A stretch of 25,353 nt of DNA, from assembly GCA_028278625.1 (NCBI GenBank), contig JANQDY010000099.1, positions 1 to 25,353 of the forward strand, given 5' to 3'. Under the pieces are notes generated by a model. The model was not told the origin of the DNA, did no database searches, and saw only the letters and a list, made by a program, of their open reading frames with translations. Position 1 is the stretch's first letter, and every line of letters begins with the position of its first letter. This DNA is from Thermodesulfobacteriota bacterium (GTDB lineage Bacteria > Desulfobacterota > DSM-4660 > Desulfatiglandales > Desulfatiglandaceae). A program made the position numbers and the translations under genes. Shown one piece after another: positions 16,103 through 25,144 of the stretch.

Positions 16103-18037
16103 TTATTTCTCAACCTTAACGATGAGATTATCAAAGGCCACAGCCTGGTTCTTATCGATTCGAAACCCGATTCTGTTGCCGTTAAACGTTTGAAAGGGGG
16201 ATTGATATACCAGGGCGTCATTGATATAGCAGTACAACCTGTTACCTCTTTTTTCAACGCTCAGTCTGTTGATGGCGGTTCCCTTGTTGATGCTGCTGCT
16301 TTTTTTCCATTTGCTGATATCGGTGAATTTCCCGTTAACGGTCTTGGATAGCTTGAAGTAGCCATTGGCGGAGATTCGAAAATGAAAACTGTTCTTTCCT
16401 TTTTTCCCCCATACAACACCGAACCCATTATTGGTGATACCCGACAAATGCTTAACCGTTAATTGGATCTTAAAATCGGAGGAGGCGTTAAATCCTTCTA
16501 TTTTTTTTGAGACGGTCCAGCTTTGATTCTCCCGATGGTGTTTGAAATAGTATTTTCCGTTTCGCAGTTTCAGATCCCGTTCTTTCTTCGGTGAAATGGG
16601 CCACTTGAAGCTGTTATCGGAAAAATCTTCCCATAACAGAACCTGATAGGTCCCCTGTTTGGCGAAAGAGGGTTTGACCGGAATTCCGCCCATCTTATCT
16701 TTGAGCTCGGGCCGAGGGGTGTCTTTCTTAATGGAAGCGCGGATCGGTTCCAGCTCAAATGAAATCGTTCTGTCCTCCCCCGGCGCCAACCTGATCCAGC
16801 TCTTTTTCGTCCCATAACCGCTGTGGCTCACTTCCAAATGATAACTGCCGGGTTCAAGATCCATCCCCTGGAAGAACTTGGGCTTGATATTGAGAATTCT
16901 GATGGTGGCGTTTTTCGGTCTGGTCTCCACAAAGAGTCTTGGTTTGGGATTGGATGGAGGAATGGAGGCGATTTCCCTCTCCTTAAAGGCTTCCACCTTG
17001 GTCCTGGCAATGGGCGCAAATACCCCATCAGGGAATGCCTCGATATAGGCTTCAAAAAGAGCGGGATCCTGGCTGTTCTGAATGGATTGCCAGAAGAGCA
17101 TTTCCTTGTCCACATGACTTTGGGGGATCTTTTTTGCGGGTTTTTTTGCTTCGGAAACCGAAGATTTCCTTCCCACATCGCCCGGCAAAACAAAGACGAA
17201 ATCTCCTTGGTCCAGATCGGGATCCTTGATTTTGCCGTACTGGGGTGTCTGGTTTTTTTGGTATGAAAGCACCTTTTTGTGAAGGTACATGCCGATTTCC
17301 GTTCCCGTGATGAAGCCGTCATCGTCAAGATCACCAGCGCCTTCCAGGGCCCGAATAAAGGAGGGCGTGAAAACACTGCGGGCGGGAACTTCCTCTCCGG
17401 CACTTCCCGCCGAAATGAACTGGCGTACGGGGCGTGAGGTGACATCGGAAATATTGGGGGGAATATGCGGCAACGCCTTTGCTTTAAAGACGGTTCCGGA
17501 AAAACAACTGTCAAAGAGAAACAGGGCGTGCTTGGCTTCGATCTCACGGGACCAGGTGAGAATTTGGTTCATCCCTAAGGCTTTTCGAGCGAAACCCTTC
17601 TCGTCATATCTGGGGTCAGGCGCATCGGCGGGAACCAGATAACCCTTCCTTCCCTGTTTTCGGGTATGTCCGTGACCCGAGAAAAAAAACAGCAGACGGT
17701 TCCCCTCGTCAAAACCGTAGGTGTCAATAAAATCTTCAAACGCTTCATAGAGTTCATCGCTATTGGGGTTCATCACCTTGACCACATGAAATCCCCTTTT
17801 CTTCAAAGCCGCTTCAACCTTTTCCATTTCATGGGGAACGCTCTCCAGTTTGGGCCAGCCGGCCGTATAATCACTGATACCGATGAGCAGGGCATGGCTC
17901 TCATTGTAAAGGCCGATTTTTCGTCCGGCGGAATCCTTTATGACGACGCTGATACCTTTGGTTTCAGTCCCTGACGAAAAAAAAGGGAGGAGCAAGACCA
18001 AGAGTGAAAGAACACCCCCCATCGCCATTTTTTTCAT
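16103..18037 (-). CDS. Exported caspase-like cysteine peptidase (C14) with EF-hand, PEGA and C-terminal beta-sandwich
   Basis: A 644-aa multidomain protein. Signal peptide ~1-28. Caspase fold ~46-285: His122 in FFFSGHGHT and Cys178 in LFDSCFSG form the dyad, with acidic Asp176 beside the Cys as in Arg/Lys-specific metacaspases. A perfect EF-hand loop, DLDDDGFITGTE (236-247), lies in the C-terminal part of the catalytic region. After a Lys-rich linker is a helical unit (FWQSIQNSQDPALFEAYIEA) seen in other bacterial caspase proteins, then a PEGA domain (~366-432) and a lectin/LamG-like beta-sandwich (~466-644). AGGGGA precedes the start. It should act outside the cytoplasm; substrates are unknown. 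Confidence 0.88.
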   Translation of the reverse strand: MKKMAMGGVLSLLVLLLPFFSSGTETKGISVVIKDSAGRKIGLYNESHALLIGISDYTAGWPKLESVPHEMEKVEAALKKRGFHVVKVMNPNSDELYEAFEDFIDTYGFDEGNRLLFFFSGHGHTRKQGRKGYLVPADAPDPRYDEKGFARKALGMNQILTWSREIEAKHALFLFDSCFSGTVFKAKALPHIPPNISDVTSRPVRQFISAGSAGEEVPARSVFTPSFIRALEGAGDLDDDGFITGTEIGMYLHKKVLSYQKNQTPQYGKIKDPDLDQGDFVFVLPGDVGRKSSVSEAKKPAKKIPQSHVDKEMLFWQSIQNSQDPALFEAYIEAFPDGVFAPIARTKVEAFKEREIASIPPSNPKPRLFVETRPKNATIRILNIKPKFFQGMDLEPGSYHLEVSHSGYGTKKSWIRLAPGEDRTISFELEPIRASIKKDTPRPELKDKMGGIPVKPSFAKQGTYQVLLWEDFSDNSFKWPISPKKERDLKLRNGKYYFKHHRENQSWTVSKKIEGFNASSDFKIQLTVKHLSGITNNGFGVVWGKKGKNSFHFRISANGYFKLSKTVNGKFTDISKWKKSSSINKGTAINRLSVEKRGNRLYCYINDALVYQSPFQTFNGNRIGFRIDKNQAVAFDNLIVKVEK

Positions 18038-21439: not shown

Positions 21440-21485
21440 TCCATGGACATCCTTTCGCTTGTTTGTTCTAAGGGATGTCCATGGA
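21440..21485. terminator. Stem-loop between convergent genes
   Basis: A perfect 13-bp inverted repeat (21440-21452 TCCATGGACATCC, 21473-21485 GGATGTCCATGGA) with a 20-base loop lies between the kinase stop and the convergent V4R-like gene. It has no T-run on either side, so it is not a standard intrinsic terminator, but position and symmetry suit a bidirectional end. Confidence 0.4.
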
Positions 21486-21506: not shown

Positions 21507-22103
21507 CTATGCCCGCGTGACCAGGAATTCTCCGTAATCATCGCCGATCTCTATCCCTTTTGTTTGTTCGCATTTGAAGGTTCCCATCCCGTCCGGATAT
21601 GGTTTGTCGCCATATGCGATGTCCATAAATGCCGCACTGACCCCCTGAATCATGTAGGCGCAGGGGCGTGAGGCTTTTCCGTATACCATAATGTCACTTT
21701 CATAGTAGTCATAGGCGCGAATGACCATTTTCTCTTTGGGAACAATTTCGATCACTTCCGACTTGGCCCATCCCCAGGCCGTAAAGACGGCGTAGGCCCC
21801 ATGAAGGACATCCTCGGGGACCTTTTCCACCATGGGCCCCACAACCTTGTTCCATTCATCGGAAGTGATGATGCCGTATCCGGTGTGGTAGCCGCATTCA
21901 TGGGCCGCATTGAACAGGAGGGCTTCGGCGGATTCAACCAGGTCTTCGGGGACATAGTTGACAATCCTACGCGCAAAGCCGTTCCAGAAATCAGAGGGGA
22001 GCTGTTGCACAAAAACATTAAAGGCCGGGATCAGTCCCTCATCATTGCCGATGACACTGACTTTTGACATCTCTTCTATGATCTTTTTTCTGTCTATCGC
22101 CAT
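21507..22103 (-). CDS. V4R-domain-like protein (198 aa)
   Basis: No signal peptide or membrane span. The middle and end follow the V4R (4-vinyl-reductase) small-molecule-binding pattern: a helix with AALLFNAAHECGYHTGYG-like residues (62-80), strands around SEVIEIVPKEKMVIRAYDYY (~114-133), then SRPCAYMIQGVSAAF (helix) and a final CEQTKGIEIGDDYGEFLV. In typical V4R proteins the last segment ends GDxxCxF; here the second Cys is Tyr. These domains bind hydrophobic ligands or metals and often serve as sensors. It starts 63 bases after the companion V4R-like gene with AGAGGAG upstream. The specific function is unknown, and the family assignment is by pattern, not by search. Confidence 0.6.
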   Translation of the reverse strand: MAIDRKKIIEEMSKVSVIGNDEGLIPAFNVFVQQLPSDFWNGFARRIVNYVPEDLVESAEALLFNAAHECGYHTGYGIITSDEWNKVVGPMVEKVPEDVLHGAYAVFTAWGWAKSEVIEIVPKEKMVIRAYDYYESDIMVYGKASRPCAYMIQGVSAAFMDIAYGDKPYPDGMGTFKCEQTKGIEIGDDYGEFLVTRA

Positions 22104-22166
22104 AGGTTTTCTCCTCTTTCATTTGAGAAAAGATTTGGTCTCGTAAGTCTTCGTTTTCAGAAGCGA

Positions 22167-22703
22167 TTATGTCAGGACCGCTTTGAAAGCCGATACCTCA
22201 TCGCCGCAGACCAACCCTTTTGGTTCCTTGACTGTGAAGGTGCGGGCCGGTTTTCCATTTGCCAGGGCCGCTACCGCTGCCACAAAGCCGCATGTGAAGA
22301 AGTTGACCGGCTTATCCCTGCTGCCCCATTTCTTAAGCCACCCTTCGTCCAAGTGCGAATACTCCATGAGGGCCGTGGCCGCATATTTGCCGATACCCGT
22401 AAAGCGGATGATTCCCATGCCCACGCACTTCCAATACTGTTCGGCAATGGTGACCTTGTCTTCGATGGACTCAATGTCGTGTTTTTGGTAGTAGTCGTCC
22501 AGGACTTCATAGAAGGTGTCTTCCGCGGCTTCTTTCATAAGCCGAACGCCCTCGAATTCCTCGGCGTCGTCAGCCAACTGGGTATAGAGGGTTGCATAAT
22601 GGTGGCAGTGAAGAACGGTGCAGAAACCGTTCATGTAGTGCCTGTTGGTGATGGGGTCAAATTTATGGTCAATTTCAAACTCGAGTCTTTTTTCGATGGC
22701 CAT
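22167..22703 (-). CDS. V4R-domain-like protein with HCHHY motif (178 aa)
   Basis: A soluble protein, also V4R-like at the C-terminus: VNFFTCGFVAAVAALANGKP (helix) followed by a strand and EPKGLVCGDEVSAFKAV. An N-terminal patch LHCHHYATLYTQLADDA (31-47) is rich in His and Cys and could bind a metal or cofactor. A central helical part (FYEVLDDYYQKHDI, AEQYWKCVGMGIIRFTGIG) precedes the C-terminal domain. GGAGG upstream; it follows the 62-aa gene by 21 bases, so the three small genes form one unit. It shares overall organisation, but little obvious identity, with the 198-aa neighbour. Function unknown; a ligand-binding or sensory role is inferred. Confidence 0.58.
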   Translation of the reverse strand: MAIEKRLEFEIDHKFDPITNRHYMNGFCTVLHCHHYATLYTQLADDAEEFEGVRLMKEAAEDTFYEVLDDYYQKHDIESIEDKVTIAEQYWKCVGMGIIRFTGIGKYAATALMEYSHLDEGWLKKWGSRDKPVNFFTCGFVAAVAALANGKPARTFTVKEPKGLVCGDEVSAFKAVLT

Positions 22704-22724
22704 ATTGATTCCTCCTCGTCGTTA

Positions 22725-22913
22725 CTAAAGTTGAATGTCCTTACCGGTTACGGCCTTAAAGGCCGTCTGAACCTTTTGGATATTTTCCGGGCTGTCCGGA
22801 GCCGCGGCAGCCTTGTCGGAACTCATCCCCGCCTTCATTGCCAGCCGCATCTGCGCTTTCACGCCGCCGGCGTCTTTGGCTGCGGCAAACGCCTTTTGCA
22901 GTCTTTTTCCCAT
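22725..22913 (-). CDS. Small basic hypothetical protein (62 aa)
   Basis: Starts at ATG 22913 with AAAGGAG about ten bases upstream. The product begins MGKRLQKAFAAAKDAGGVKA, is rich in Ala and Lys, helical and has no Cys, signal peptide or membrane span. A low-complexity stretch (SSDKAAAAPDSPENIQKVQ) links two helices; it ends VTGKDIQL. I do not recognise the family. It is the first of three closely spaced genes ending with the two V4R-like genes and follows the chemoreceptor gene by 174 bases. A stable hairpin lies in that gap. Its role is unknown; it could be a small adaptor or helper for the V4R proteins. Confidence 0.6.
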   Translation of the reverse strand: MGKRLQKAFAAAKDAGGVKAQMRLAMKAGMSSDKAAAAPDSPENIQKVQTAFKAVTGKDIQL

Positions 22914-22974
22914 AAAGCCTTTTCTCCTTTCAGATATTAAATGTTGCCGTAATGTATGCCACTTACCTTTACCG

Positions 22975-22993
22975 GTTTCCCGGCACGGGAAAC
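22975..22993 (-). promoter_or_regulatory. 8-bp hairpin in the leader of the V4R unit
   Basis: GTTTCCCG and CGGGAAAC are perfectly paired around a 3-base loop, about 60 bases upstream of the 62-aa start. No T-run follows on the minus strand. It may be an mRNA-stabilising or processing hairpin between the chemoreceptor gene and the three small genes. No known riboswitch was recognised. Confidence 0.4.
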
Positions 22994-23020
22994 TTCTCCC
23001 CTTTGGCCGGATGTTCTTCG

Positions 23021-23042
23021 AAAACCCACTCGCAAATGGGTT
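23021..23042 (-). terminator. Weak terminator-like hairpin after the chemoreceptor gene
   Basis: On the minus strand AACCCA, an 8-base loop and TGGGTT are followed by two more T's, so the T-run is only four. It lies 46 bases past the chemoreceptor stop. The stem is short, so read-through into the 62-aa gene is likely. Confidence 0.35.
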
Positions 23043-23087
23043 CATTATCACCCCCCTTAGGCCCTTTTGGGTTGGCTTCTGCCGTTT

Positions 23088-24290
23088 CTAGAAATCCCTG
23101 AGGCCTTCTGCTTCAAGGATATTGTTCCGTAAATCCGCCTCCCCTTTATCCCTTTTGAAAGGTAGAGCAGGATGCGCACCCACCTTCTCCGTTCCAACCG
23201 GTATTTTGGCAACCCCGGAAATCTCCATCGATTCTCCGGCACCGCCATTTAGAAGCGGGAGTAACCCGTTAATCATATCCATCATCTTGCCGGTCCGGGT
23301 GTTCATCTCTTCGGTGGCCGCGGCCGATTCCTCGGCGCCGGCCGCATTCTGCTGGACCACCTTGTCCATTTCCGTTACCGCCAGGTTGATCTGTTCGATT
23401 CCCTGGGCCTGCTCATTGGAACCGGATGCGATTTCGCTGACCAGCACGTTCACCTTGCCGGTGTTTTCATCCACGTTGGAAAAAGCGTCGATGGTTTCAA
23501 AGACCAAATCCATGGCTTCTTCGATTTTGCCGTTGATGCTGTCGATCTGTTCCGTGGTGTCTTTTGCGGCCGTTGCCGCCCGTAGGGCCAGGTTCCTGAC
23601 CTCATCCGCCACCACGGCAAAACCGGCACCGGCCTCTCCGGCCCTGGCTGCCTCTACGGCGGCGTTCAGGGCAAGAAGATTCGTTTGAAAGGCAATTTCA
23701 TCAATGGTTTTTACGATTTTTCGTGTCTCCTGGCTCGCATCGTTCACCTGCCCGATGGCGGCAGCCATTTCCTGCATGCTGTTGGAACAGGAATCGGTTG
23801 TGGTTTTTGTCTGGGTGGAAAGGGAATCGGCCTCCGTGGCGTGGGAGGCATTCTGCTGAGTCATGGAAGATATTTCTTCAAGTGAGGCGGATGTCTCTTC
23901 AATGGCGGCGGCTTGTTGGGAAGCCCCTTCAGCCAGCTGTTGGCTGGCAGCCAGGATTCCTAGAGAAGCGGAAGAAATCTGTTCCGCCGATTCTCTGAGC
24001 CCTGTAATGCCCCGGCCCAGCGGTTTGATCAGGCGTTTTGCCATCAGGCCCAGGTTCAGGGCGAAAATGCCGATTCCCGCGGGTACCGCCCAGATAGTCG
24101 TTTTCAAGCTGTTCACGCCTCCTGTTTTGTGCCAGATGTAGACGAGCAGAATCAAAAGGGTGATTCCCGGAATCAAACCGGTTAAAAGCTTTGTGGCGAT
24201 GTTCTTTCTCATCAGAAGAAAGAAAATCCCGCAGGCAATTGCCGTCCCTGCCACGCCGATGCAGACCACCAACAGAATTTCGGATAACAT
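23088..24290 (-). CDS. Methyl-accepting chemotaxis protein without a recognisable sensor domain
   Basis: A 400-aa chemoreceptor. Residues 5-27, 33-53 and 65-84 are predicted membrane spans with only short loops, so there is no periplasmic or PAS sensor domain and no clear HAMP. The signalling coiled-coil hairpin (~100-350) has the strictly conserved tip, [20 protein letters not shown] (196-215), then [20 protein letters not shown]. Gln/Glu pairs that could be methylation sites flank it (e.g. [25 protein letters not shown]). The tail (350-400) is polar and lacks the CheR/CheB-binding pentapeptide. No cheA, cheW or cheY is adjacent. It lies 86 bases after the HTH/PAS regulator gene; it may take its input from a partner, perhaps the V4R proteins. 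Confidence 0.88.
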
Positions 24291-24376
24291 GATCTTCCAC
24301 TCCTTTTTTTAGAGATTAACGGTTTATTTGAGATGGGCACAGCGGACACCCGTAAAACCGGATAAATGAAACGGCT

Positions 24377-25144
24377 TTATGGGATGCCGGCCGGGCTTTC
24401 TTCTTTTCTCTCCCGTTTACTTGCCAAAACAAGCCAGGCGCCTTCAGGCTCGTGAAGGGGGTAAAAGAGGGCTTCAACCTCAATTCTTTCTTGGTTTCGA
24501 TTTTTCAGATAAATTGGAAATGGGCCGGAAGGTTCATGGCCCTTAAGGCCCATCTTGCGAAATTCGTGAAGCAACGACGCCAAAGAATCCCGGTGGACCA
24601 GTTCCTCCACTCCCATTCCAATGATTTCCTCCACGTGAATACCGCAAAGTTCGGCTCCGGCACTGTTTCCCCCCAAGAAATGGAAGTCCCCGTAAACAAA
24701 GGCAGGAGCGGCGATCTGGTGGACCATCTGTATTCGCGGCAGATGGGTTTTGTGGAAATATTCGCATTTGTTACAGTCTTGAGGGCACTTGGAAGCGCTA
24801 AGACCTCTCATGATAAAGCAGTTGCTGAGGCGATTGTGAAAAATGCGACAATCCTTGCATTCGTTCCCGTGCGGCGTTCCCTCATTGTATTCCCAACAGG
24901 CCATCACGGTTTTAAAGACCCTTTCCATTGGGTTTTCCTGATAGAGTTCTTGAGGGACTCGCCTTCCCGTTGATTCCAAAAAAAGCGTCAAGTCTTTGAC
25001 CGGTATGACATACTTGTTTCCCTCTCTTTGTGTATGGATCTTTCCGGAACGGCACCAGTATCCAACGGTGTTTCGATTAACCCCGCACAAAGACGCGACC
25101 TGTTGAACCGATAGGCTTTCGGGTTTTGGGCTCATCTGTTTCAT
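24377..25144 (-). CDS. HTH - two-CW-like - PAS transcriptional regulator
   Basis: A 255-aa protein in three parts. Residues 10-57 are an excisionase/MerR-like helix-turn-helix (LSVQQVASLCGVNRNTVGYW then GKIHTQREGNKYVI and DLTLFLE). Residues 80-131 contain seven Cys (83, 96, 99, 109, 120, 124, 127) starting ACWEY and ending CNKCEYF, like the two-CW motif found in anaerobe signalling proteins and probably a metal or Fe-S site. Residues ~137-242 are a PAS-like sensor. It could sense redox or a ligand and control the adjacent cluster and the divergent gene. A GGAGG is two bases from this ATG; an ATG three codons on (25135) is possible. Three repeated sites upstream may be its operators. Confidence 0.75.
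   Translation of the reverse strand: MKQMSPKPESLSVQQVASLCGVNRNTVGYWCRSGKIHTQREGNKYVIPVKDLTLFLESTGRRVPQELYQENPMERVFKTVMACWEYNEGTPHGNECKDCRIFHNRLSNCFIMRGLSASKCPQDCNKCEYFHKTHLPRIQMVHQIAAPAFVYGDFHFLGGNSAGAELCGIHVEEIIGMGVEELVHRDSLASLLHEFRKMGLKGHEPSGPFPIYLKNRNQERIEVEALFYPLHEPEGAWLVLASKRERKEESPAGIP

Follow-up and report, generated by a model that had tools for sequence, protein, structure and literature searches.

A paired V4R-fold gene unit, probably a two-subunit sensor, beside a sensorless chemoreceptor in a Thermodesulfobacteriota bacterium

Introduction

V4R domains act as sensory domains in PoxR, MopR and DmpR, where they are fused to an AAA+ output domain. In phenol sensors the V4R zinc site comprises three cysteines and one glutamate, according to the available excerpts of two papers (PMC10715001, PMC7264223). 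A second described system is MsvR, a redox regulator of methanogens and a homodimeric DNA-binding protein with a helix-turn-helix (HTH) fused to one V4R domain; conserved cysteines of that domain are described in the available part of PMC3729527. The third is the TRAPP heterodimer of Bet3 and Trs33 (TRAPPC3/C6), Bet3 being related to V4R (PMC2253512, in excerpt). Here we analyse two V4R-fold proteins, of 178 and 198 amino acids (aa), encoded side by side with a chemoreceptor in a 25,353-nucleotide stretch of DNA (hereafter the window; contig JANQDY010000099.1, assembly GCA_028278625.1) from a Thermodesulfobacteriota bacterium.

The window pair differs from PoxR, MopR and DmpR in having two different subunits with no fused output domain, and in carrying a conserved HCHH motif in place of a conserved three-cysteine zinc site. 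From MsvR it is set apart by that protein's fused HTH and homodimeric, DNA-binding nature. It resembles the TRAPP heterodimer as a set of two V4R-type subunits that pair; Roadblock genes, too, are found near some V4R clusters and, in one locus (L168, which has a lone copy of the accessory gene introduced below), a small GTPase-like gene. No description of this V4R pair was found in the literature searched, in which coverage of subscription journals was slight.

Results and discussion

An obligate gene pair

The two V4R proteins are encoded by one obligate gene pair. In the window they are the last two of five minus-strand genes, read in the direction of transcription, which the earlier note had proposed as a sensing cluster; all five are confirmed as open reading frames (ORFs).

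21507..22103, minus strand: 198-aa V4R-fold subunit (A1 family), from the ORF listing
22167..22703, minus strand: 178-aa V4R-fold subunit with conserved HCHH, H32-H35 (A2 family), from the ORF listing
22725..22913, minus strand: 62-aa accessory protein (S62), from profile matches upstream of A2 in 55 of 81 loci
23088..24290, minus strand: 400-aa chemoreceptor with three membrane spans and no sensor domain, the probable output partner (MCPsignal 1.3e-40, spans)
24377..25144, minus strand: 255-aa HTH_17, Cys-rich and PAS-like regulator, a neighbour whose membership of the unit is unproven (HTH_17 8.8e-11)

A scan of a species-level genome collection supplied the best 80 of 81 confirmed loci, and the window is included in the locus counts given here. 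Counting the window, 79 loci include DNA upstream of the 198-aa type gene, and in every one of them it is immediately preceded by the 178-aa type gene, seen in L080 only as a fragment; the remaining two of the 81 start inside the gene. In L032 and L033 both V4R proteins are found in one ORF, and a search with the fusion retrieved seven full-length fusions, these two included, along with a distant 398-aa relative annotated with Pfam V4R. The 198-aa family is patchy, since only 13 of the 395 genomes of one phylum match it, ten of them divergent, and in every one of the 13 the partner gene adjoins. The rows of a tree of the 198-aa protein bear 20 phylum names, mostly of metagenome-assembled genomes. 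The finding is better described as a probable two-subunit V4R sensor, widespread, accompanied by a small protein and linked by context to alternative signalling outputs, than as a loose five-gene cluster, and the unfused proteins probably form a heterodimer.

The same evidence bears on the form of the idea in the earlier note, that the two proteins are separate sensors, one each for the chemoreceptor and the HTH/PAS regulator. In its favour, one gene row holds both V4R proteins together with two possible outputs; strict pairing, fusions and the lack of conservation of the regulator alongside the pair (see below) speak against it, and we consider it very improbable.

The V4R fold

The window's three small proteins (62, 178 and 198 aa) give nothing firm in Pfam or NCBIfam profile scans, and the 178-aa and 198-aa proteins themselves have no Pfam V4R match. 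Among relatives, PF02830 (V4R) is matched by 10 of 38 members of the 178-aa family (best 3.6e-6) and none of the 33 scanned members of the 198-aa family, of which 1584 were found, significantly matches V4R or any other Pfam family. The profiles of the two families align with each other (hhalign probability 87.7, E 3.4e-6, 77 columns). The predicted model of a natural fusion is a single compact two-domain protein, each half of which resembles V4R sensor structures; its best structural matches are ligand-sensor domains and not the TRAPP Bet3 proteins. On this modelling both proteins have the V4R fold, as in phenol sensors. The proposal of two different V4R-like proteins is thereby upheld by family profile matches, profile alignment and the structural matches of the fusion model, the support from direct profile searches extending to relatives of the 178-aa protein and to neither the window proteins nor the 198-aa family.

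Signalling neighbours and output partners

The V4R unit is found among signalling genes far more than are distal genes of the same contigs. Among 104 same-strand neighbours there are 16 DUF4388, 15 MCPsignal, 14 Response_reg and 13 Roadblock matches. Among 101 distal ORFs there are three of Response_reg, while DUF4388, MCPsignal and Roadblock are not among the 25 families listed, the smallest of which have two members. With unseen families set to two, the maximum possible, Fisher p values are 5e-4 for DUF4388, 9e-4 for MCPsignal, 6e-3 for Response_reg and 3e-3 for Roadblock, for neighbours and chemoreceptors that are related by descent and so not independent. Within 4 kb of the pair, methyl-accepting chemotaxis proteins (MCPs, the chemoreceptors) are found in 17 of the 81 loci, Roadblock/DUF4388 in 26, response regulators in 24 and at least one of these in 48; MCP and Roadblock/DUF4388 are found together in none. 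Cultured hosts of the pair include Aureispira and Heliobacterium, and both are without an MCP in that range.

In a tree of the 198-aa protein, grouping follows the output partner and not the phylum. It is a quick tree of 78 rows, with 20 of 74 branches starred and L077, L078 and L080 excluded. Over 43 labelled rows, two changes suffice to separate MCP from Roadblock/DUF4388, compared with 13.6 for shuffled labels, and none of 500 shuffles needs so few; neither class keeps to phylum boundaries. Presence of the enzyme discussed below takes 11 changes. The clade that holds the window is starred and has 13 rows, six of them with an MCP nearby.

The 400-aa protein of the window matches MCPsignal (PF00015, 1.3e-40) and its hydrophobic spans, at residues 1-28, 30-54 and 65-84, have no large loop between them, which bears out its description as a chemoreceptor with three spans and no sensor domain. 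Fourteen full-length chemoreceptors are encoded beside the unit and eight of these, in the window, L008, L014, L018, L023, L048, L056 and L059, are of 480 residues or fewer, with spans close together or absent. Elsewhere in 13 of these genomes, 20 of 155 other chemoreceptors are as short (Fisher p 3e-4 against 8 of 14), where the control lengths are open-frame lengths, some cut by contig ends, and where sub-threshold and repeat rows, the truncated chemoreceptor of L003 and genome G006 (57 matches) are excluded; an earlier control count gave 18 of 150 among the matches listed. The excess of short chemoreceptors beside the pair fits with the pair supplying the missing input, and from this context we infer that the V4R pair probably contacts the window's sensorless chemoreceptor and gives it its input. 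Of the earlier proposal that V4R proteins feed the chemoreceptor, the regulator or both, the chemoreceptor part therefore gains from the signalling neighbours, the short MCPs and the MCPs in six of 13 clade rows, and the regulator part finds no conservation in its favour.

A candidate ligand or cofactor site

The HCHHY patch that had been noticed in one of the V4R-like proteins is H32-C33-H34-H35-Y36 of the 178-aa protein. Across the fetched loci, all 78 aligned ORFs of the 178-aa type have HCHH and W122 unchanged, and among 38 database relatives C33 is replaced once, by Ser (P0073). The very divergent pair L104 has HCDKF. In 79 aligned ORFs of the 198-aa type, D98, W112, Y133, Y134 and E135 are invariant and C70 is kept in 78. 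In the fusion model HCHH sits at the junction of the third strand with the helix that follows; at the equivalent strand-helix junction of the 198-aa half there is a conserved QLPxxFWN. The dimer interface in the TRAPPC3 structure is formed by two N-terminal helices (PMC10933270, in excerpt), and by analogy the modelled candidate site may lie near the subunit interface. The HCHH motif is the likeliest place for a cofactor or ligand to bind.

The three-cysteine zinc site is not conserved in window-type proteins: the only invariant cysteines in 33 rows of A1 are C70 and C178, and in 38 rows of A2 the sole cysteine at 90% or more is C33. Divergent pairs retain, as judged by eye, a Cys-rich V4R end. 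Invariant Trp and His are present in the pair, and may or may not correspond to the His/Trp dyad that holds the phenol hydroxyl in phenol sensors. Two further observations concern the motif. L074 (1916-3139), L090 and L092 each encode, beside small unknown genes, a single protein of around 400 aa whose two halves are both V4R-like and which carries the motif HCNHYN. In L114 (8263-10981) genes for a desulfurase-like protein and a 104-aa protein come after a very divergent pair with HCDKFN for HCHHYN.

Conservation of this kind could be read in two other ways. In one, the pair would be an MsvR-like redox switch, C33 of A2 and C70 and C178 of A1 responding to oxidants and altering a partner with no ligand involved. 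The cysteines of the MsvR V4R domain are reported, in the available part of PMC3729527, to affect redox-dependent DNA binding, and C33 and C70 are kept in 78 of 78 and 78 of 79 ORFs, respectively. Against this, the HCHH histidines are conserved equally to the cysteines, and P0073 has Ser in place of C33. We consider such a switch unlikely as a full account, although it may also be the way in which a two-subunit sensor works, so that the probabilities of the two overlap. In the other, the pair would be an effector or regulated target, for example a metabolic step, acted on by the response regulators and chemoreceptors. Conservation is indeed enzyme-like, with 68-94% identity to the window protein across 32 relatives and many invariant polar residues, and ATC hydrolase is placed near V4R in a published comparison (PMC5847659, in excerpt). 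The best structural matches are nevertheless ligand-sensor domains, and the adjacent chemoreceptors often lack a sensor; we give the effector role a small chance.

Accessory genes

Accessory genes were counted with profiles built on locus neighbourhoods. The 62-aa protein, merely an unknown in the earlier note, is found upstream of A2 in 55 of the 81 loci and its gene belongs to the V4R unit. It is rare outside it: only four of the 395 genomes of one phylum carry it, three of these having a close-type pair. Four lone copies were read, with genes named by reading: those in L169 and L170 lie beside a response-regulator gene, that in L168 in a row of response-regulator, Roadblock and small-GTPase genes, and that in L167 near signalling-like ORFs. 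In L168 (5098-8388) the lone gene sits between Roadblock-like genes, followed by an MglA-type small GTPase-like gene.

Two further genes often lie near the pair: one for a class-V aminotransferase, in 55 of the 81 loci (that of L063 being a weak match), and one for a 95-aa protein, in 59. The enzyme resembles cysteine desulfurases: its best NCBIfam match was the cysteine desulfurase family TIGR01977 in each of three tested loci, above cut-off in one, and its second was the selenocysteine lyase SclA, above cut-off in none. All 42 near-full-length members retain the desulfurase-type Cys pattern of the active site, and one Cys never varies among the 35 aligned 95-aa proteins. These data, together with the desulfurase-like gene beside one divergent pair (L114), are what would be expected of a sulfur (or selenium) transfer unit, in which the desulfurase-like and 95-aa proteins would serve the V4R pair, itself a scaffold, carrier or enzyme, and signalling genes would be bystanders. 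However, a profile search finds neither gene in the window. Twelve genomes with no 95-aa gene at the locus (that of L005 not among them) were searched for it: in 11 it is missing throughout and in that of L030 it lies elsewhere, with the reservation that genomes may be incomplete; as a positive control, two genomes known to carry the gene were both recovered. The desulfurase-like and 95-aa genes are therefore not needed for the window's version of the unit. Signalling neighbours, moreover, occur both with and without the enzyme, and we regard a sulfur transfer unit as quite unlikely.

The favoured explanation

On balance, and with modest confidence, we favour a two-subunit soluble V4R sensor that feeds an adjacent output, here the sensorless chemoreceptor. 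The 178-aa and 198-aa proteins would pair into the sensor, and their shared interface or pocket, marked by HCHH in the former and by QLPxxFWN and CGYxT in the latter, would bind a small ligand or a metal/thiol cofactor. Together with the 62-aa accessory protein, the pair would then pass its state to the output protein encoded alongside, which would be the membrane chemoreceptor in the window and the Roadblock/DUF4388/response-regulator set in another branch.

Several observations weigh against this explanation. Besides the lack of conserved MopR-type zinc cysteines in window-type proteins, 33 of the 81 loci have no MCP, Roadblock/DUF4388 or response-regulator marker within 4 kb, some of them lying at contig ends. 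Six of the 14 adjacent chemoreceptors exceed 480 residues, and five (in L001, L002, L011, L016 and L042) have a clear sensor loop; that of L028 has a gap of 27 residues between spans. Genome G238 carries the 62-aa gene on a different contig from the V4R pair. Finally, rows are not independent, and clustering by output type on the tree could stem from joint transfer of whole clusters, which would look alike, yet would still imply that pair and output travel together.

The regulator and other neighbours

The 255-aa regulator is a neighbour of the unit and not a proven part of it. It matches HTH_17 (8.8e-11), PAS families only below Pfam cut-offs, and has a Cys-rich stretch with one visible CW. 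The label 'two-CW' given to it has no profile support, no such family being listed in the NCBIfam scan at E<=1; a model of that name is presumably present in NCBIfam. Across the ORFs of L001-L117 and L167-L170, no match to the regulator reaches E<=1e-3; two, in L003 and L042, stand at 0.0015. A conserved five-gene order is thus unsupported, and the idea of linked gene control and taxis gains nothing from conservation. A similar Cys/Trp motif, which is suggestive only, is seen in long ORFs that adjoin the divergent pairs of L106, L107 and L109.

Other genes near divergent pairs were identified by eye. In L105-L107 and L109 the pairs lie beside corrinoid adenosyltransferase-like genes, with a PAS kinase and a NarL-type regulator after, and some also have corrinoid methyltransferase-like and acyl-CoA genes. 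A PAS-containing regulator-like gene directly follows the pairs of L108 (9351-10604), L110 (7682-8923), L111 (7291-8937) and L112 (9473-11119). In the window itself, positions 16103-18037 encode a 644-aa protein with, by eye, a caspase-type peptidase and a C-terminal domain. One further feature separates the V4R unit from a convergent histidine kinase gene:

21440..21485, no strand assigned: 16-nt inverted repeat, 94% complementary, a possible two-way terminator

The repeat is not listed in a terminator scan whose criteria were a loop length of 3-8 together with a T run.

Conclusions

A broader reading is possible, and we hold it to be doubtful: the V4R heterodimers may constitute a widely transferred receptor class with a metal or sulfur-derived cofactor held by HCHH, made in some lineages with the unit's own cysteine desulfurase, and may serve as an exchangeable input cartridge, for sensorless chemoreceptors in one branch and for Roadblock/DUF4388/response-regulator pathways in another. 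Some chemoreceptors have no sensor domain and an input that is not known, and for these the V4R pair would be a concrete, testable candidate input. It also provides a hypothesis of function for the large 198-aa family, in which no scanned member has a significant Pfam match.

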